Assembly (NCBI GenBank): GCA_002205965.3
Contig: NADL03000604.1
Location: forward strand, 1,178,001-1,242,000
Direction: 5' to 3'
DNA: 64,000 nucleotides
Origin: Kappaphycus alvarezii
Taxonomy: Eukaryota; Rhodophyta; Florideophyceae; Gigartinales; Solieriaceae
In this document: positions 2,481-49,574 of the stretch, piece after piece
Layout of the letters: each line of letters opens with the position of its first letter
How positions within the stretch are numbered: the first letter of the stretch is position 1
The notes under the pieces: generated by a model
Database searches by the model: none
What the model was told of the DNA's origin: nothing
Seen by the model: the letters and a program-made list of their open reading frames with translations, nothing else
Position numbers and translations under genes: made by a program

Positions 2481-3574
2481 GGCGAGGATCAGGGTATCTT
2501 GTTCTGAATTAGGCCTGAATATAATCGAAGCAGTGCATAATATTTGCCGCATGACCCAGAACCAAGAGGCTCTCACTCAAAAGCAGCGTGTCGTCAACAA
2601 CGGACATTTTTTTCGCGGATATAATCATGCAAATATATCCTGAGAGGGCAGAAGGTAACACACGAAGCAAGAATTTGATCGCTGTTAGCTGTAGATCTCA
2701 TTAGTTCGGTTGACATTACCTCAACTAAAGCTGGCTTCCATAGAAGGGTTCTGACTTGATCTTGAGGACCAACGCGTGGCATACTCTGTGTTTCAGGGTA
2801 CTCTGTGTTTTGTTTCCTTGTCTCCCCTTCTTCGTATCGTTTGCTTTCGCAACCTTGCGCTACCGTTTTGAGCGTGCGCGAGGGAGCTACTCTAGAATGT
2901 TTTGAACTAGTTGCGTAAATACAGAGTTGCGATTAGAACGGGAGAGCAAAGGAGTATGCTGAACTGCTGGCTTGATGCCTCACAAATTTACCTGATAAGT
3001 TCGACTCTCGCTGTTGAAATTTCGCGCTCCCCGCCCTCATCCATCTCTTAGCCCCTGAGAATCTTTCCATAGCGCATGCGCTCTCGTCACCACGGAGCTC
3101 CAAGTAGAAAGCTTTTTATTGGGCAACGCGTCACCACTCCGTGATTAGGTGCCGTGTGCTCGCGCTACACTCATTGGCTCCCGGAATCCATGCATTACAG
3201 TAAGTTGGGCGGCTGACTGATTCAAAAGCAGACTAAACTCGCGAAGACTCCGCTTGATGTGCGAAATTCGGCCAACAATATTTCCACACGTCGCAGTTTG
3301 GAGTTGGGAAAATTTTCCCAACAGCTGGTGTGAATATATCCCTGATGTCACCACGACTACAAAATTTTTCACTATACCGTACTTGCATACTGTACATGTT
3401 TGTCGTCCCTACAGTACAGTACTGTACTGTACTGTTACAGTACTCAATACTGTAGTTTATGTGCGGATCAAATGTGAAGGCCAAAACATTGGTAAGTTAA
3501 GAATTTTACTCATTAATTTTCTGAATTACTTGTGCAGAGCCACTAAAATTGACTAGCTTTGGAGGGGGAGGCAA
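2481..3574. other. Intergenic, no gene recognised
   Basis: Only short open frames without domain signals. The main structure is the GTAC-rich palindromic run at 3411-3455. A second partial motif occurs around 3390. Confidence 0.5.
3411..3455. repeat. GTAC/TACTG palindromic oligomer run
   Basis: Alternating ACAGTAC and GTACTGT words form a self-complementary run. The same word recurs near 8201-8222, 8384-8407, 8848-8868, 9502-9522, 37170-37210, 37788-37820, 37979-37992, 43156-43173, 54599-54621 and 59482-59505, always outside the recognisable host coding regions. It looks like a dispersed self-complementary microsatellite or the core of small palindromic elements. Confidence 0.7.
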
Positions 3575-25002: not shown

Positions 25003-25870
25003 TCAATTCAAATCCACTGAGGGTACGCATTCAGCCCTTGATGAGTTTTCCCTTACGTAGTTCATCATTTTAACTGGAGTAAAAACACCTCTGTTTCCTG
25101 TTTTTCTCTTGACTAGGCCAAAATACCCATCACATACGTTTTTTGGATGTCCAGCTACCAAGAAATTCAACTTAATAAAATCATTGAAACCCATAGTAAC
25201 GCGTCACATTAGATAACACAACACAAATCGATTTTTGTTTTGCCCACTGCAGTTATCTTCATGTAAGCGTACAACTTTGTTGAATGAAATACCTGGTCAC
25301 ATAGAACACTTAAAACAAACTCTAGCATTAAAGAGACCATATTGGCGGTCTTTTATGAACGGAACGGGTATTACACTTTCCACTACTTGCTTAGCATGTA
25401 TTTGAGTAGTACGGTCTGATAACTGTACAACAGCGGCAAAACCATAAAGGCACACTTTATGACCTTTGACAAAGTAGCCTGTTGTAGTATTACCATCCGA
25501 ACCTTCCCTACGGCGCTTTTTCCTATACCTAATCTCAGTACTTCCATGTAGTGTCCCATTAACCTTATCCGATTTAGCCGACACTGCAAACAACATGTGT
25601 CGGACAAAAGACACTCGTTCGGCTTCGGTAAAGCTTGCAAATGCTAGCGCCATCTGTTTGTGATCATCAGTACTGCAACTTGATTCGTATGTACGCAAAA
25701 GCATCCACTGATTGTAGTGGTCCTCAGCAGGTTCAGTCGCATACTTGTCACTAGAAGTTACATCGTTTGTTTCATTGGCCGACGTTAGACTTAGAAATCC
25801 ATCACTTGGGGTTATTTCGTGATCATGATCGTAGTGATCGTCTTCTACATCGGATGGAATGCCCTGATGA
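25003..25870 (-). pseudogene. DUF7869-like, transposon-associated protein with two in-frame TGA codons
   Basis: One minus-strand frame runs from about 25870 to 25003 and is interrupted only by two in-frame TGA codons, at about 25294 and 25207. The C-terminal part reads RLHEDNCSGQNKNRFVLCYLM, a TGA, then RVTMGFNDFIKLNFLVAGHPKNVCDGYFGLVKRK. This matches the pattern I know for DUF7869 proteins (H.DNC.GQNKN...Yl.wR, then fl..GHTK..pD..FG.iK). The second TGA falls where the family usually has Trp. The upstream part includes YFVKGHKVCLYGFAAV and an acidic N-terminus. DUF7869 proteins are commonly linked to DNA transposons and may be DDE-like nucleases; function here is inferred. The frame between the ATG at 25704 and 25870 is open but has no ATG. 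Confidence 0.55.
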
Positions 25871-32771: not shown

Positions 32772-32922
32772 TTTGGATATCCTGTCTCAGATATCCTGTC
32801 TCAGGATTCCAGTGAAAGAGATCGTATCAAGCAAAACAGAAAACAGAAAATTTACATCGAGAAAACGTCTGTAATGTACAGGCGTCAAACCCAGCATTTG
32901 TTCGTAGGCGAATCCCCGCAAA

Positions 32923-34359
32923 ATGAAATCCCGATTCCTTTTCTTTTTTCTCTTCTGCTTTTACGCTGTTCCCGGTCGTTTCACACCTATATTCTTTTCA
33001 GAGCATTCCCTGACCCCTGCTCAACTTGGCCTCATCATTGCAATCCCTAAATTTGTCTCTCTGGTCTCTATCCCCATAATATGCAATCTTGCCGACCGAA
33101 CAAGCCGGGAAAATGTTTCAGCCGCCTCCCATATTCTTGGCCTGATCTTCTTCGAGCTTCAGGTCATAGCATTTCCCGCCCTCAACCTCATTGATGCCTC
33201 ATTCCGCTTTCCTCTTCTCCTTACACTTTCCGTTGGCTATGGTTTCTTCGGCTCAACCACATATCCACTCGTTTACGCCATCGCCGTTTCCCAACTTCGC
33301 TCCTTGCACGGCGAGGAAGAGGGCCCACTGCTGATAGGCCTGGAGCGTCTATGGGGAGCCGTTAGTTGGGCCATTGCGTCCCTCCTCCTTGGCTTTATAC
33401 TTGATCTCAAATTTACAGATATGTCCGCAGTTTATGTTGGAAAGCTGATTTTTGGCATCATTTTCGCAATTTCTCTCAAGCTTTTCTCGGAGGAACGTGA
33501 CAAACTTGTGGCCTTGCATAACATCGGTGGCGAAAAGGATTCACTAGCTCAGGATGCGCTTTCAGAAGTACAACCTGAATACCAGGAAGCTGTCTCAACA
33601 TTGACCTACTCAACATTTGACGCTTCCCCAGGTGAACACACTTCCCCTTCTATGTCCCCACTCTCAGCTATATCAGGAATTCTTTCCAAAGATCTGCTTT
33701 CCTGTATAATGTTTCTTAATCTCCTCTTCTGGGTCAGTGCGGGCATGAGTCTAGTCGAGAGCCTCCTCTTCATCTTTATGCAGGACGATCTCCGCGCCTC
33801 CAACTTTGTTTGCGGCCTCAGCGTCGTTATCACTGTCATATTCGAAATACCTTTATTTGCCGTAACGCCAACCTTACTTCGTCGTCTTGGTGCTCCAGGG
33901 CTTGCCATCCTCGGTTGCATCTGTTATATCGTCAGGGCATTTGCGTATACCCTTGTGCCAAATGCGTGGGCACTCTTACTGTTTGAACCATTGCATGGAG
34001 TCACCTACGCAGCTGTGTCTACTGCGGCCGTTGCCTTTATAGCGGAGCGTGTACCTCAGAGATTAGAGGCCACTGGACAAGCTATCTTGAGTAACACCCA
34101 AGCATTCGCATATGCTTTCGGCACTACAGCAGGTGGCTACGTCATTCAAAGATTTGGTTCTAAGGTTTTGTACAGATGCGCTGGGATTATAGTTCTGACG
34201 GCAACGGTAGCATACGGCTTAGTTGACAGAGCATCGGGGAGAAACGATGAAGAGCAGAAGACAGTAGCGCTGAAGGATTGTGATTTGACGCAAAAAGGGC
34301 TTGATAGGGATAGGAAGCACATTAGAACTATTGGGGGTGAAGTGAATTTTGATGAATAA
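32923..34359 (+). CDS. MFS transporter, LacY/MFSD6-like (MFS_1_like), 478 aa
   Basis: A complete, intronless gene with a clear ATG and stop. The protein has about 12 hydrophobic segments in two halves separated by a hydrophilic loop (residues about 180-245). The N-terminal half starts with FYAVPGRFTPIFF and an early GLIIAIPKFVSLVSIP, then LADRTSR, the usual charged loop between TM2 and TM3. The C-terminal half has LFIFMQDDLRASNFVCGLS, EIPLFAVTPTLLRRLGAPG and LLLFEPLHGVTYAAVSTA, a pattern typical of the LacY-like branch that includes MFSD6-type proteins. TM10-12 follow (YAFGTTAGGYVIQRFG), with a polar tail of about 40 residues. It should be a membrane secondary transporter; the substrate cannot be told. 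It converges with the CTLH gene on the other strand. Confidence 0.9.
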   Translation: MKSRFLFFFLFCFYAVPGRFTPIFFSEHSLTPAQLGLIIAIPKFVSLVSIPIICNLADRTSRENVSAASHILGLIFFELQVIAFPALNLIDASFRFPLLLTLSVGYGFFGSTTYPLVYAIAVSQLRSLHGEEEGPLLIGLERLWGAVSWAIASLLLGFILDLKFTDMSAVYVGKLIFGIIFAISLKLFSEERDKLVALHNIGGEKDSLAQDALSEVQPEYQEAVSTLTYSTFDASPGEHTSPSMSPLSAISGILSKDLLSCIMFLNLLFWVSAGMSLVESLLFIFMQDDLRASNFVCGLSVVITVIFEIPLFAVTPTLLRRLGAPGLAILGCICYIVRAFAYTLVPNAWALLLFEPLHGVTYAAVSTAAVAFIAERVPQRLEATGQAILSNTQAFAYAFGTTAGGYVIQRFGSKVLYRCAGIIVLTATVAYGLVDRASGRNDEEQKTVALKDCDLTQKGLDRDRKHIRTIGGEVNFDE

Positions 34360-40818: not shown

Positions 40819-41545
40819 CTTTCAAGTCTACTGAAGATAGCGATGTAAGATTTAAGGCGCGCTATACGTCATTGGGGTGCATAGCGATAAGATGAAACGA
40901 ATGATGCTTCATAACGCGCAAACACTCCAACCAACATCGATCAGGTTAATCCCTGCGCTCGCTGCAGCCCATAAGTTCCAAGTTTGGACTTCTGATGTAC
41001 GACAGGCTTACTTATAATCTGCTGCCCCTTTCTGGCGAGACGTATACATCAAGGATGTCGCCCCGGAGTTCTCCATATCCGCTGACCAGTGCCTGCAAAT
41101 CTTGAAGCCTATCTACGGTCTTTGCGATGCAGGAGATTTATGGTTCCAAACAATTGACTATCACAACCGCAAGGACCTCTCCTTGAAACATATGCGCTCT
41201 GATCAGGCCCTCTATGTGGCCACGAAAGACGGATCAATCCAAGGTTTTACTGGTACCTACGTGGATGACATGCTGAGAGCTGAGAACGAAGAATTCAGAG
41301 AGCAAGTCAATAAAACGTCTCACAGCTTTGACATGGCCCAAGATGAGACTCCGCCTGTTAATTTCACAGGCTTTTACATTGCATTAGATAAGAATTACAT
41401 CCTGAAAATGGAACAAAATTTTTACATCCAACGCATGCAGCCACTTTCACCAGACGCGGACTTCTCGAGTTTCGCATCTCTTCGTTTGAAACTCGCTTGG
41501 CTTTCGAATACGCGCCCGGATCTCATGTATGAAGTTTCTCAATAG
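40819..41545 (+). pseudogene. copia reverse transcriptase
   Basis: From about 40830 the reading gives SDVRQAYL, a stop where Gln is expected, then RDVYIKDVAPEF and CLQILKPIYGLCDAGDLWF. The catalytic YVDDM follows at 41258-41272, then FTGFYIALDKNYILKMEQNFYIQRM. This is the copia RT order. The ATG-led frame 41102-41545 covers the part from KPIYGLCDAG onward without a stop. The final segment LKLAWLSNTRPDLMYEVSQ is the RT-RNase H connection (caW....RPDi.y.vs). Upstream frameshifts disable it. Confidence 0.8.
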
Positions 41546-43155: not shown

Positions 43156-43378
43156 AGTACTGTACTGTTACAGTCCAGCACATGAACGTAGATATAAGGC
43201 TGCCCGCTCCGCCCAATCGGGCCATGAGGGAAGAAGGAAGAACGACCTACCTACTGTACCTATCTACCTACTGTACCTACCTACCTACCTACCTACTGCA
43301 CCTACTTGCTGCACCTACCTACCTACCTACTGTACCTACCTACAGTACCTGGTACCTACCTGCCTACCCCCTCACCTA
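43156..43378. repeat. GTAC run and (TACC)n simple repeat
   Basis: A GTAC/TACTG run at about 43156-43173 is followed by an imperfect (CTAC)/(TACC) tetranucleotide tract from about 43250 to 43378 with interspersed TGTACC. The two short overlapping Thr/Tyr/Leu-rich frames here are products of the repeat. Confidence 0.8.
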
Positions 43379-44567
43379 GCTAACGTATAAGACAATCGGC
43401 CTAGTTAACAGCATCAAGTACGGGACCGCGCTGCTGTCCCGGGACTTTTTATACCCGTTCACTGCTCCTGCCTCCCTCGCTTCCCTCGCTACCTCAGCGC
43501 ATACCATACTATGTACTGCACAAAAAAGACGAATGCAGTACAGTATTTCTTTGCAAAACCTGCTTTAGCACCCACGAATGATTAAAAAAATTTACAAGCC
43601 CCACGTCACCTTCGCGCGAAGCGCGCGCGTCGGCAAGCGCTATTTTTGAATGCTTTCAAACAGAGTCCGAAGTCACGGTCAGTTGAGGAAGTTTAGAGTT
43701 CGTTTCATTTCCGCGAATGTAAAGGTGGCACATTCGTCACCATGAGGGGGTCTTCGCCGGAATATTCGAGTTTCTAACCTACTACGTTTGCGGCGATCCC
43801 GCAAAAATTTGAAAAAAACTCTTCAGGTCAGGGACCAATAAAAGAAACAGTTTATTAATCGTCTCCGCTCCCGTCTCCCTCACTCTCCGCCCCTTCCAAT
43901 AGCAAACGCACAAGTCTTTCATTTATGTGAAAGCGCTATAGATGATATATCATTCCAAAAGTGCGACGCTCGATTTTATTGTCCATTATATGGTAGAGGA
44001 GCCTTTACGGAAGGAAAAGAGACCCATGTAGGCCGACAATCGTGATGCAGAACTCTTAAAACTCTGGAAAAGAACAATAGACTTTAAGGTTTGAAGGGAA
44101 TAGTGCAGATAAAGACTGCATGAAGGCAGCAGCGTATCACGTAATAGGATCAAAGCTGATAAAATGAGGAATAGAGAACAAAATATTAAGTAAGGGGGAG
44201 TCGTCACTGCAGACGACAAAAAAATAACATAACTATAAACGATTTACGTACTAGCTTTGTCAAAAGTTGTAGAACAGCGCCATGCATATTTATTGAAATT
44301 TATATAACTATTTATAAGTCAGTAGAGCTATTGGAAACACTGTATGAGCAACTTTTGTAAAGAGGGACGACGAAATGAAAATAAGAGGCTTTCGGCAACC
44401 GCTTCTAGACGGCTTGTATGGAATTGTAGTTCTAGGGGGACGAAAAACAAGAATAAAATAGTGTCAAACGGCTTGAAACGACTCATTTTGGTTAGTTCAT
44501 TGATTCTATAGATCAATGAAATACTCTATTGTATGCGTACGATTAAGTTATGTTGGAGCAGAGGACA
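43379..44567. other. No recognisable gene
   Basis: Contains a short GC palindromic patch (TTCGCGCGAAGCGCGCGCG) near 43614 and AT-rich sequence after 43900. A 77-codon minus-strand frame at 43986-44219 is hydrophobic but matches nothing I know. Confidence 0.45.
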
Positions 44568-45122
44568 TGTGTCGATTGCACGGCACTCTTCGAAAGATGA
44601 TGTACAATCAAGATTAGCAGAGGATGAATTCAGGCTGACGCAGACGCCTTGATTGACAAAGCCGTAGATATGTGTCACCATATCGACACATGCGTCTAGA
44701 AGGTGACAGATATAGCCACTGATGAAGTAAGTGACGATCTGTGTGTCATCGCAACGACAAATATGTCGATGTGGTGACACAGATACCCAATAACGATTAA
44801 TATAGAGAGCTATGTGTCGCCAATGCGATACGTAAGGTGAGGAATGTGTCGCCCGAGAGACAAAGCTCCAAAGCGGGGGGATATAAAATTGGACCTGTGT
44901 CACCTACGCGACACATATGTGTGTGTCAGCGGCACAAAACCATTACGAGAGCGGATCATTATTCTTCTGTTATGTCACACTACAACACATGCATTACGGA
45001 CGCGACGAAACATAATAATTAAAGCGTTACACATCACAGGGGCGATTCTTCTGTGTCGCATGAGCGACACAGGTATTTCGGTATTATGACACATATTTAC
45101 AACGTGTCGCTACTGCGACACA
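44568..45122. repeat. Left array: eleven palindromic units
   Basis: Units of 20 bp (7-bp arm, 6-nt centre, 7-bp arm) start at 44568, 44671, 44742, 44762, 44813, 44845, 44896, 44922, 44971, 45052 and 45103. The best preserved are 44896 (TGTGTCA/CGACACA), 45052 (perfect TGTGTCG/CGACACA) and 45103. Others have one to three arm changes; 44922 is poor. The centres differ (for example CCATAT, TCGCAA, CATGAG, CTACTG). Spacing is irregular, but many steps are near 26, 51 or 81 bp. Confidence 0.85.
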
Positions 45123-45763
45123 TATTTGAAAATTGGTGGTATTTTATTAGGAACACCTGTATGCCCCCATTTCGTCCGATTCACGCCATTAACCTCTTCA
45201 TCACCCTCCCCATCCTCATCCCCACCCGAACCCGCACCAATCCTTTCCTCACTGCTCGCCGCATTGCTACCTCCCGCGCTCTTTCGATATGTCCGAATCG
45301 CTCCCCACAACTCCATCCACACCCTAACGACCCCATTGTGACAGTCGTGCCATCACCCCACCATCAAGCCCATTTTTGTCGAACCTGTGACAGTACCCGC
45401 ACCATCACGACCTGAATTGTCACCCTCGTGCCAGCTTCCGCACCATGACGTCTCCATTTTCGTCCTCTGTAATTATATGCACAGTCACATTGTCTTTTGC
45501 CGCCCTCCTAGTACCATTTGATCCCCAATTCCCTGTCTAGTCGACCCGCTAATACCCGCATCCAAGTTCCCTCATCCGTTGGCACTGTCATTTCGCCCCA
45601 ACGTCCGTATCCGCCCCCCTCTTCTACCATTCTGCCCTTCTGACATCCTCATCACTCCAACAGCCATAACCCGCACCATCATCCCTCTCCCGCGTTGGCC
45701 TACCCCAAGCATCGTCTAATCTCCAACGTTCCAGTACAGTGGTTTGTTGGAGTAGTATTGGTG
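45123..45763. other. C-rich spacer upstream of the recombinase gene
   Basis: The plus strand is rich in CC and CACC words and encodes only biased frames (for example 45126-45341 plus; 45110-45322 and 45624-45833 minus, the latter Asp/Glu/Gly rich). It may carry the recombinase promoter. No motif stands out. Confidence 0.4.
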
Positions 45764-47092
45764 ATGGCGGACGGAATATCGAAGAAGCGAAAACTTGTGA
45801 GCGCTCAGTCTCGTCGTGCGCAAATAGAGACATTTAGTCTTTGTTTTGTGAAAAAGAGCAGCAACGTAGTTTATGAGAGGAAATGGAAACAATTTAGGGT
45901 GTTTTGTACGGATAAGGATCTGCAAGATGAAGGCATATGTATCGACTCGAAGGGTCCTGAGGAACCTAGCTCCAAAATTGTGGGCAATTTACTGGAATGC
46001 TTCTATTAAGAAGCAGTTGAGACTGGGTGTGACCCCGGTGAGGTCGCCAATATTAGAACAGCACTGGACAGTGTGTACAAGAGGAAATTTAGAAGAGATG
46101 CCAAATGGCGAGTCCTCTAAGGCGGTAAAACGGAAGAAAATCCAGGGACATTACTCAATGTGGAGGAATAAAAGGGTTACTATGACTGGATAGAGAAACA
46201 GGTAGGGTACAAAAGGGCGCTTCTATTCAGATATCGGTACATTGATAGAATGGAACGTTACGCAGCTCGAATCGGGTCCCAATCTTTGCAGGCGCTGTAC
46301 GTAATGACAAATTACTCAGTTAAGTTTACTTTGTGGTTGCGTATAGATGAACTGGTCAATTTTTCATGGGAAGGCATTCAATTGGACACCGTGAACGATC
46401 AGAAGGTACCGTATCTCGAGATTCGTCTGAAAGGGCGAGAGTATGAGCGGAGTTAAGACGGGAAGCTATACGTAATTTATGAGCAACGTGTAGAGTCGTG
46501 TATTTGTTCATTCACTCATGTACGAGCGTGGGTGCAGTCTTTTAAAGTCCATCATGTCGCCCTCTTTGGCATCTGGGGACCCTATAATTCCCCATACAGA
46601 CGAGTTAGTCTTCCAGATCAGTTTTGGGACGAAGCAGAACGAGCAGAAATTCATGAAACCGTTAATTACTAGGTGGAGAGGTGTAACATCATTTCCAGGA
46701 ACGCCACGGGAGAGAAACTGGGGATTTCTACGATGCAATGATTTAGGATAGGCAGTGCACAGTATAGGTTCTCGATGGTATCCAGACAGTGGCCTCTTCA
46801 TGTTGTCGAGTGGTGGGGGGGAAGGGGGAGTGGTGATGATGTGAACAAAATCATTCGTTACCTCCCAAAAGAGACCTGGAACTATGAAGAAAGCTACACC
46901 CGTTTCCTGTTTAACAGAGATAAAGATCTCGAAATTAAATCCAGTACGGAAAGCGTGGATGATTTACAACGCGAGCTTATCGATCTAAATCTCGCGGTGC
47001 ATCTGAGTTTCAAAGATTTCGAGCACCGTGTGATGGTACAAATTTCAGCTCAGACATATTTCTTATCGGCGCTATGGAAGGAGGGAATGTAG
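45764..47092 (+). pseudogene. Crypton-type tyrosine recombinase, one frame with in-frame stops
   Basis: From the ATG at 45764 a single reading phase of 443 codons reaches the TAG after KEGM, interrupted by six stops (46007, 46118, 46169, 46454, 46670, 46739) but no frameshift. The N-terminus (MADGISKKRKLVSAQSRR, then YERKWKQFRVFC) looks like a core-binding SAM-like domain. The catalytic domain includes LWLRIDELVNFSWEGI (first catalytic Arg). It then has FRIGSAQYRF, where the family pattern is H.fRRG.AQYR, so the His and following Ser are lost. WPLHVVEWWGG and a candidate nucleophile Tyr in IIRYLPKE come last. The C-terminal 60 residues are acidic and helical. Cryptons use such enzymes to integrate by site-specific recombination. 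This copy is dead. Confidence 0.7.
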
Positions 47093-47395
47093 AAGGGGGA
47101 GGGAGGGGTACGTAGAGTTAGAGGACAAGTCGTTAATGTGGTACACGGACCTTCTACTGTAACGGGCTAGAATGACGTAGATCTCGCTTCAAAGTGTATA
47201 TTTACACCGTGGGTTAATAACTGGCGTCAGCTTATTGAGCGTTGGGGGGATGGTTGAAGGGCTCTCAACTTTGTTGAACCGTTGAAATAATGGCCAGAGA
47301 AGGCCAGAACGACGTCAATGAAAATCAAAATACCATGAGCGAAAATCTATCGCCGAAGAGTATGAACGGCTAGGTGAACTGGAGTTTGCGGACTT
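47093..47395. other. Spacer between recombinase and Cys-rich frame
   Basis: No gene recognised. The plus strand has a short in-phase stretch (MAREGQNDVNENQN) without domain features. Confidence 0.4.
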
Positions 47396-47695
47396 TTACA
47401 GCCCTGAAAAAATACCGATAACCGAATTGAGGATTAGAATGCGAGCGCGGAGGAGGGCCGGAACGCCGCAAACATAACATTTCATTGAATAAGAACAGTA
47501 TTCATCACTAGACTCTGGTAAGCAGTTCATGCAGTACACATTGGTGGTAATCCCGATATCGTCCGTTTCCCAAGTGATGGCGTCAATATAGGTATGGAAG
47601 CACGTTGCATGGAGAGAGCGGGAGCAGTACGCACAAGTCAGGTGCACAGCACCGCAAATATTAAGCACGGGAGTCAAGCCACCTAGAGTTCCCAC
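47396..47695 (-). CDS. Cys-rich, possible zinc-binding open frame
   Basis: About 100 codons with clustered cysteines: NICGAVHLTCAYCSRSLHATCFH, later YCMNCLP, and MKCYVCGVP. The spacing (CxxC pairs and a CxH in the middle) resembles a PHD/RING-like or other treble-clef finger. There is no ATG at the 5' end: a stop lies directly before the first GTG, so it is either a lost start, a downstream exon or a relic. Its place between the recombinase and the right palindrome array makes it a candidate accessory DNA- or chromatin-binding protein of the element. Identity is unknown. Confidence 0.35.
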   Translation of the reverse strand: MGTLGGLTPVLNICGAVHLTCAYCSRSLHATCFHTYIDAITWETDDIGITTNVYCMNCLPESSDEYCSYSMKCYVCGVPALLRARILILNSVIGIFSGL

Positions 47696-48305
47696 ATTCT
47701 ACATCTCCGAAATTAACACGAGCAGTATGCACGAACCCTCCATTTCTTAACGCTTCCTTTCCAAGTACTCTTTCCGAGCTTCCTTTTCTTTTCTATGCAG
47801 CAATTTTGGACTCGCTTACTGCCCTCATGCGTTTCACCTCATAATATAGCCTTTTTCCATTAGCTTCCATTCCCTTGCTGATATATTCTTCGGATCGAAC
47901 TGAGTTTTCAGCATAAGCCTTTCGTTGACACATACTTCGAACAAGATTTTGGACACAGTACACTCATCTTTCGAGAGACCGAGGCGGGCAGTGAGTTGAT
48001 ATATTACATAATTTTTATAGGCGTTGTCGATCTGAGCGGAGAGCGGATATTACGGAAGAGTACCTGCTTGAGACGTTATTAATACAGGACAGTAGACGAT
48101 AAGAAGATGTAAACGTACTTGTGGGACGTTGGAAGAGCGGTGAAGTGCGAGACAATCACCCAGTGTTGGAATCGGAGGAAATTACACATCATGATATGGC
48201 CAATTTTTTTGTGGGGCAGTCATTAAATTGATCAACCATATGATGTGACGAATTGGAAACTATACCTGACTAGAATAGGTGTTTTGATGTCGGAAAAAAT
48301 AGATA
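47696..48305. other. No recognisable gene
   Basis: Sequence between the Cys-rich frame and the right palindrome array. No domain-bearing frame, repeat or RNA gene was seen. Confidence 0.45.
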
Positions 48306-48651
48306 TGTGTTGTGCAAGCGACACAGGAGAATGATTCGACAGCCATACACACAGAGCAGCGGCACGAGATATGAACATAAGTGTAGAGTGTTGTGTTAGG
48401 GTATCGACACACCTACCTGTGTTAAAGTACGGATACAGGTAGGAGTGTGTTAAACTACCGACACAAATATCATATGAAATCACGGTGCTTCGGCCGTTTC
48501 ATCAACATAAGACAAGTACATGAATAGTCGATGCATTGACATCGGCGGTATGAGTCGGTCGGGCGACACATGAGGTATATGTCGATGAATCGACACAGGC
48601 TGTATGCGTCAATGCATCGAAACATGTGATATGTGTCGATCCGGCGACAGA
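48306..48651. repeat. Right array: nine palindromic units, five phased at exactly 27 bp
   Basis: Units of the 7-6-7 form start at 48306, 48392, 48418, 48446, 48524, 48551, 48578, 48605 and 48632. The unit at 48418 has longer arms (CCTACCTGTGTTA / GGATACAGGTAGG). Consecutive starts from 48524 to 48632 differ by 27 each. Arms are mostly TGTGTYR and CGACACA. A minus-strand frame at 48470-48676 with a 9-residue repeat is only the translation of this 27-bp periodicity. Confidence 0.85.
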
Positions 48652-49574
48652 AATACTTGACAACAACGGAAAACAAATATTAACTTTAATTCAACAGGAA
48701 TTCCGCACAGACCGCCGTAAACATCCACCTCGAACCTCCTCCCACCAACCCCGACAACTTCACCGCTTGTCCCTTCCATTTAGGGGTTCCTCGGGTGTGA
48801 GCCACACTTTCACACTGTATCCCCCAAACCGACCAGTCCGACGGCAAAAAAGTTCCATTAACCCCTCACAAAATCTAACAACCTCCTCTACAATGGAGGG
48901 CGGGGCCCGCACCTACGTGCTTCTGAGTACTGACATGGTTCCAATCTTGATCCGATCTTCATCAATAATCATGGGACCACAACCCAGTAACTCCTTTTCC
49001 ATCATGCTAATAAAATCAACCAAGAGCTGCTTTCCAAATCTGACTGTGTGATCAATTCGCACAGAATCTGTCCATGGTTTGATACTCTGCGGTAATACGA
49101 GGCAGCCCAAGGTGCAAAAAACATGGAAAATGGGACGTTCTAAGCCAACAGGGGGGCCACCTGCGGAAAGTAGAGAGTGAGAAATACGATACACTAGGCC
49201 AGCCCAACCACCTCGTTGGATCTCCAGTGTTCCTTTTTATTTTCAAAAAAAGAAATTTTGTAAATTTTAATCATTTTTAAACATCCAACTCCAAAAATAC
49301 CCTTTCTAGATGCTCTAAAGGCACATTATATAAATACAAATGCAATGAATGCATTTTGGCGCCAAGGGAGAAACAGGGTGCGCTGTCTGCGACAACTGGC
49401 TAAAATTTCCATGCATGAAAATTGAGCAGATACTATGAGTTTAGCAGAATCGAGCTGAAAATCTCCTGTAATCAACCCACAAGAGGAAAGCCTCAAACAC
49501 ATACCTCCTCTCCCATTGCAGACTACATTAAACTAACTATTCAGGAACCCCCCTCTTACCATGCCCCGCCAACC
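48652..49574. other. Region with one unassigned minus-strand frame
   Basis: The minus strand at 48913-49194 is open without an ATG and contains RIDHTVRFGKQLLVDFISMM followed by CGPMIIDEDRIKIG. It reads on past a stop with SIVEEVVRFCEGLMELFCRR. It looks like genuine protein sequence, but I do not recognise the family. It may belong to another transposon. Confidence 0.35.

Follow-up and report, generated by a model that had tools for sequence, protein, structure and literature searches.

The stretch of Kappaphycus alvarezii DNA analysed here (contig NADL03000604.1, positions 1,178,001 to 1,242,000; 64,000 nucleotides, referred to as the window) contains a decayed copy of an old, many-copy transposon family. 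In this copy a tyrosine-recombinase-like pseudogene and a second gene lie between two arrays of short palindromes, and a fragment of a third gene follows the right-hand array (Table 1). The palindromes had been noticed in a sequence-only reading, which described about twenty units, each consisting of two inverted 7-bp arms around 6 nt, in two blocks around the recombinase gene, with fixed spacing and varying centres. Scanning the 64-kb window with the pattern TGTGTYR-N6-YRACACA (up to two mismatches) confirmed this description: 19 of the 20 matches were inside the two blocks, 11 in the left and 8 in the right one, and six of the 19 were exact. The single outlying palindrome, at 25596, has two mismatches. 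Dinucleotide-shuffled versions of the window contained 2.47 palindromes on average and 7 at most; the number 20 was reached in none of 100 shuffles.

The information content of the 38 half-sites is concentrated in the seven positions of the arm (TGTGTCR, 0.86–1.8 bits per position), whereas the centre carries at most 0.2 bits and the positions outside the arms at most 0.31 bits. The length of the centre was examined in a spacer scan covering 43 loci, some of them overlapping, and the window (305,666 bases altogether, up to one mismatch). There were 289 matches with a 6-nt spacer, and 0–17 with each other length between 0 and 14. The spacing is strict and the centre nearly free.

The sequence-only reading had proposed testing whether the pattern clusters near recombinase genes in the source genome (336 Mb, 884 contigs), and this link was found. 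The exact pattern occurs at 372 sites, the reversed control pattern at 10. Among the 50 exact sites listed, which come from the first contigs, 46 have a recombinase match no more than 8 kb away, and three are in a copy (L014) of which only the last part of the recombinase remains. One exact unit among these 50 (C4:621621) stands alone, without a nearby recombinase match. A chance or window-only origin of the palindromes was excluded by the shuffles, the genome-wide count and the spacer scan.

The link was also tested starting from the recombinase. A search of the genome with a recombinase exon of copy L016 gave 144 matches, several per copy, and the best 30 of these were taken as loci with 1.5-kb flanks. 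The 5′ flank contained at least one unit in 28 and at least two units in 26 of the 30 loci; L044 and L045 have one unit each. Altogether 133 units were found on the 5′ side and five on the 3′ side, whereas shuffled 5′ flanks lead one to expect 2.1. Three loci are not independent, two because they were known through their arrays (L017 and L031) and one because it is the window itself (L027); when these are left out, 23 of 27 loci have at least two units in the 5′ flank. Within what was listed there were neither genome-wide arrays unlinked to recombinase genes nor copies with arrays on one flank only.

To define the element, 14 long copies were compared: the window copy, nine copies picked for their arrays (L008–L016) and four picked by their recombinase (L047–L050). 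About six groups can be told apart among them (window/L013/L014; L008/L015; L009/L010; L012/L016/L048; L047/L049/L050; L011). The order of the parts is constant: left end, array A, recombinase (+), gene 2 (−), array B, gene 3 (−), array C, right end. Copies showing both ends are roughly 7–9 kb long, except L014 (6.5 kb), which lost part of the recombinase. Arrays A and B are present in all 14 long copies, nine of which were picked because arrays were present. Of the 12 long copies counted for array C, 11 have it; it is missing from L012 and consists of one unit in L016. The window copy and L011 were left out of this count because neither a match to gene 3 nor a right end was seen in them, and in L049 the fetched stretch stops right at the right end. 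The earlier description was of two arrays on either side of one gene; the fuller copies have three, one 5′ of each gene. The right-hand block of the window is the internal array B; the window copy has lost the third array near the right end.

Each array occupies the intergenic region 5′ of one of the three genes. Arrays and gene matches overlap only at 5′ edges (window, L008, L015, L047 and L049), apart from one unit inside gene 3 of L047 and one inside gene 3 of L048. In 10 of the 14 long copies array B has the most units, up to 24; the window copy, L014 and L015 have more units in A than in B, and the two are equal in L013. DNA similarity between the groups is mainly limited to coding parts and the vicinity of the ends; on the left side a few other stretches are also alike, and all groups keep the arrays. 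Within close pairs the sequences differ by about 10%, and according to the frame lists none of the 14 long copies has an uninterrupted recombinase frame through the motif region. For these two reasons the family looks old. The copies L009 (C4:53500) and L010 (C4:81700), about 28 kb apart, also have the sequence beyond the right end in common (about 87–90% identical), and perhaps represent one duplicated stretch.

In outline, two inverted arms separated by a centre of constantly 6 nt look like the core sites of tyrosine recombinases (PMC3212892), and the sequence-only reading had listed recombinase core sites among three options for the arrays. The 282 units of the 14 long copies have 158 distinct centres. 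Among the 1487 pairs of units taken from different arrays of the same copy none had identical centres, whereas about 0.7 would be expected by chance. This figure is not a deficit: identical centres, which exchange would require, are simply missing, and nothing hints at exchange between arrays. Because the centres differ between arrays, the palindromes are probably not crossover sites. Moreover, the conserved arms are 7 bp long, short in comparison with the 11–13 bp of tyrosine recombinase core sites (PMC3212892), and the copies terminate at other sequences. We consider it very improbable that the palindromes are the recombinase's own crossover sites; of the three options, a regulatory site and a site for an accessory protein are left.

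The ends seen in the copies compared are at sequences other than the palindromes. Left ends have the form flank-ACATT[A/T]CATGTA[C/G]AAACAACC...ATGTCACGG, right ends the form ...TGTCACGGTTGTTTAAGGGCGCGAAAATGGTACATT-flank. Exact ACATT was present at 12 of the 14 left ends shown (the exceptions are L049 and L013) and at six of the 13 right ends shown, 11 of which have AC; two further right ends, those of L013 and L014, are without ACATT. Six of 11 two-ended copies carry exact ACATT at both ends (L016, L048, L050 and the copies on C552, C467 and C676), and five do not (L047, L012, L009, L013 and L014). Fourteen terminal pieces had been fetched, nine of which showed an end and five did not (L051, L053, L054, L056 and L062). 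An imperfect inverted stretch lies near both ends (GGTTGTTT / AAACAACC, GTCACGG), whereas terminal inverted repeats are absent from Cryptons. It is safe to state that a short direct repeat is common at the element ends, similarly to the 4–6 bp direct terminal repeats of Cryptons (PMC3212892). At some left ends hairpin-like stretches were seen by eye, in which GTCACGG...GCCGAAGGC-like words accompany inverted copies of the left terminus (with the recombinase turned to plus, L014 about 3290–3380, L012 1648–1800, L048 1539–1650 and L009 529–600). They are perhaps a miniature inverted-repeat transposable element or part of the end.

We think it somewhat probable, judging from the arrangement of the sequence, that the arrays serve a Crypton-like DNA transposon as clusters of operators, bound by a dimer and controlling all three genes. 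Fixed spacing together with a free centre suggests a symmetric dimer on DNA, and an array before each gene suggests joint control of the three genes. A symmetric DNA-binding protein would bind each TGTGTCR-N6-YGACACA unit as a dimer, and dimer binding at the arrays would control the three genes together. The binder would most simply be coded by the element, and could be the N-terminal part of the recombinase, the zinc-cluster protein of gene 2, or the product of gene 3. Strand exchange would occur elsewhere, at the termini. There ACATT-nCATGTA-AAACAACC on the left would be joined to GCGAAAATG-GT-ACATT on the right, closing a circle, and this circle would recombine with a target that matches it over a short sequence, in the way suggested for Cryptons. 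We regard as rather doubtful the more specific idea of a lineage of eukaryotic tyrosine-recombinase transposons with a self-run regulon, in which one element-coded dimer would act on the arrays of all three genes in a phage-like manner, by self-repression and copy control, working in trans on incoming and resident copies.

The presence of symmetric sites with a fixed spacer 5′ of all three genes would also suit an element that captured the binding sites of an algal transcription factor and is driven by this host regulator. Of the 50 exact sites listed, out of 372, 49 are at element copies, which gives little sign of a host regulon, and we find such an origin improbable. Clustered repeats of a 20-bp unit also call to mind the iterons by which an extrachromosomal circular form would be replicated or partitioned. 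Against this stand the division of the units of an element into three arrays, each located 5′ of a gene, and the lack of any replication family match among the element frames scanned; a role as iterons seems most unlikely.

Another possibility is that the arrays are accessory sites of the recombination complex, where a protein, once bound, would bend the two ends and pair them ahead of cutting by the recombinase at the termini. Arm-type sites of integrases and the subterminal repeats of CACTA and hAT elements are comparable. The location of array C, about 150–250 bp from the right end in copies showing both, allows a structural role or a role in bringing the ends together; array A is on the left side of the element, and arrays of many units would go well with cooperative loading. 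On the other hand, array A begins about 1.0–1.4 kb inside the left end (nine long copies with the left end seen), and array B, in most long copies the largest, lies inside the element, at a distance of at least about 1.7 kb from the right end. Unit spacings keep helical phase in L009, L016 and L049, whereas no phase was detected in the window subfamily (p about 0.3), L008/L015 (0.09) and L011 (0.5). Helical phasing was rejected as a general feature, since it holds in the first three but not in the others named, and tandem growth could explain it. We hold an accessory role in place of control to be unlikely, while the arrays perhaps also help synapsis.

Several observations weigh against operator clusters. 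Two of the 30 recombinase loci (L037 and L043) have no unit in the 5′ flank, and four of the five units found on the 3′ side belong to a single locus (L039; the fifth is in L019). The 5′ ends of the genes were set by tblastn and open frames, not by transcripts. Array C is near the right end, which leaves room for a role in recombination. Within subfamilies the divergence was 0.103 in the arms, 0.121 in the centres and 0.132 in the flanks, and the arms are not clearly more conserved than the centres; the ratios from this count were 0.66–1.14 for arm to centre and 0.65–0.94 for arm to flank. Finally, none of the three proteins matched a DNA-binding family above the cut-off. A stronger contrast (0.071 in arms, 0.123 in centres) was rejected as biased, since choosing units that are exact in one copy lowers the apparent divergence. 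Conservation of the arrays rests more on their persistence across groups than on recent constraint.

The recombinase contains the motif R ... HCFRRGGAQ (or close) ... KWWGG ... YL in 14 distinct copies (17 rows), with stops and changes. In the alignment the motif string is like MHCFRRGGAQHRFLTG-RWPLHVVKWWGG-GDDVNTIIRYLLEETWKYEESY, and the Arg lies within LRIDEL. We take this pattern to be of the Crypton type, and the enzyme is likely to be a Crypton-type recombinase, as the sequence-only reading had proposed, although matches to integrase profiles were sub-threshold only. PF00589 (Phage_integrase) was matched by six of 57 alignment members with a best E value of 0.016, and unrelated families scored alike (Gal-bind_lectin 0.013, two members; Trimer_CC 0.00055, one member). 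The integrase families phrog_1/phrog_216 were matched weakly by three of eight recombinase fragments (E 0.09–0.47). No integrase family was found in an NCBIfam scan, protein searches with the recombinase returned no relatives, and searches of Protein Data Bank (PDB) sequences returned nothing convincing, only two weak Prp8 matches (E about 0.2). AlphaFold models of the recombinase had low confidence (mean pLDDT 34 and 54), and their comparison with Foldseek gave nothing usable. An Rfam scan gave no match.

The C-terminus of the gene 2 protein has a Cys/His cluster (CxxC, HxxC, CxxC) whose spacing is RING/PHD-like by eye and whose Pfam matches were sub-threshold only. Gene 3 had no family match in Pfam scans and among PDB sequences. 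No Pfam match to a reverse transcriptase or a DDE transposase was found in the element open frames scanned, in agreement with the definition of Cryptons (PMC3212892).

The window copy aligns with L013 and L014 (Table 1). It lacks everything to the right of 49228, a part that in L014 is about 1 kb long and includes array C as well as the right end, and on the left it lacks the outermost 83 bases relative to the L013–L014 match. In the recombinase the segment 46545–46640 matches in another frame, the C-terminus is in another frame from about 47338, and Q-stop-FR is found where other copies have HCFR. With a broken recombinase and neither end left, the window copy is expected to be incapable of moving on its own. 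Inverted pairs similar to that near its left side, such as GAAAATG-N7-CATTTTC in L009, are present at the corresponding place in L009, L012 and L015; judged by eye, the pair is a possible accessory recombinase site.

Table 1. Parts of the transposon copy in the window (position 1 is the first nucleotide of the window)
Feature	Position	Strand	Description
Transposon remnant	43582..49228	+	DNA match to L013 and L014, 67–82% identity by block; both outer ends missing
Inverted pair CGAATGT ... ACATTCG	43714..43736		Near left side
Array A	44568..45122		11 palindromic units, 5′ of recombinase gene
Tyrosine-recombinase-like pseudogene	45764..47479	+	Six in-frame stops up to 47092
Gene 2, decayed	47501..48331	−	Convergent to recombinase; C-terminal Cys/His cluster
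Array B	48306..48651		8 units 5′ of gene 2, between genes 2 and 3; first unit overlaps gene 2 match
Internal deletion junction	48828..48832		About 1.08 kb missing relative to L013 and L014
Gene 3 fragment	48832..49228	−	82% DNA identity to L014 8448–8844, inside the gene 3 match of that copy

Other features of the window lie to the left of the element. A decayed ACCT-rich tandem repeat (43245–43368) is a few hundred bases from the remnant, and a fragment with a reverse transcriptase match (41018–41542, +; RVT_2, E 3e-9) is of the Copia type. A long intact transporter frame occupies 32908–34356; its closest matches are 74% and 75% identical, and the three matches that have an organism name are all from red algae (Gracilariopsis chorda, Pyropia vietnamensis and Porphyra umbilicalis). 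We take the window to be nuclear DNA of a red alga. An open frame at 1527–2063 (−) matches the transposase endonuclease domain DDE_Tnp_4 (E 3.7e-13).

Palindromes of this kind were also met in viral sequences. Three viral contigs of IMG/VR (L001, L002 and L003) contain at least two units, and other predicted genes are nearby in L001 and L003. Each has three palindromes in tandem whose arms are nearly the same (L001 1978–2060, L002 492–574, L003 7067–7149), with A/T-rich centres, 31–32 bases apart and at the ends of predicted frames. Scans of viral contigs with pieces of the recombinase gave no confirmed match. The integrases of the endogenous giant viruses of the brown alga Ectocarpus are similar to our element in being algal tyrosine recombinases with very short shared sequence at the insertion, whereas those are virus genomes with many genes, and the available part of the source mentions no such arrays (PMC13236599).

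In CACTA (En/Spm) and hAT elements, too, many copies of a short motif near the ends are bound by an element protein. Our element differs in the class of its enzyme, in having palindromes with a strict 6-nt centre and in having one array internally. No DDE match was found in the element frames scanned, and the ends are not plain inverted repeats, which speaks against membership in these groups.

No description of such arrays was found in the literature, in a search outside which lay most subscription papers and the Repbase entries. Repbase has 1181 entries for Chondrus crispus (PMC4455052), and similar elements may be catalogued there already. According to the 2011 Crypton survey, no nucleotide sequence had been found to be conserved among Cryptons, and how they are regulated had not been studied (PMC3212892). 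In the family described here, which has many copies, the genes are marked by a motif of exact geometry that survives deep divergence between subfamilies. With such a motif the control of the element becomes a direct binding question, and the palindromes provide a DNA signature for finding relatives in other red algae.

Among the named Crypton groups (F, S, A, I and V; the name CryptonV is from PMC4455052), the mark of CryptonF, GCR1_C, had no match at E values up to 1 and was not among the matches listed (25 of 26 families) for the recombinase alignment. As to the marks of CryptonS, the termini of our element differ from the TATGG of most members, and no match to the C48 peptidase, which some members encode, was found in the frames scanned. 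In resemblance to Cryptons, the element has a tyrosine-recombinase-like gene and short direct repeats at many, though not all, of its ends; unlike Cryptons, it carries two further genes and three arrays of palindromes.

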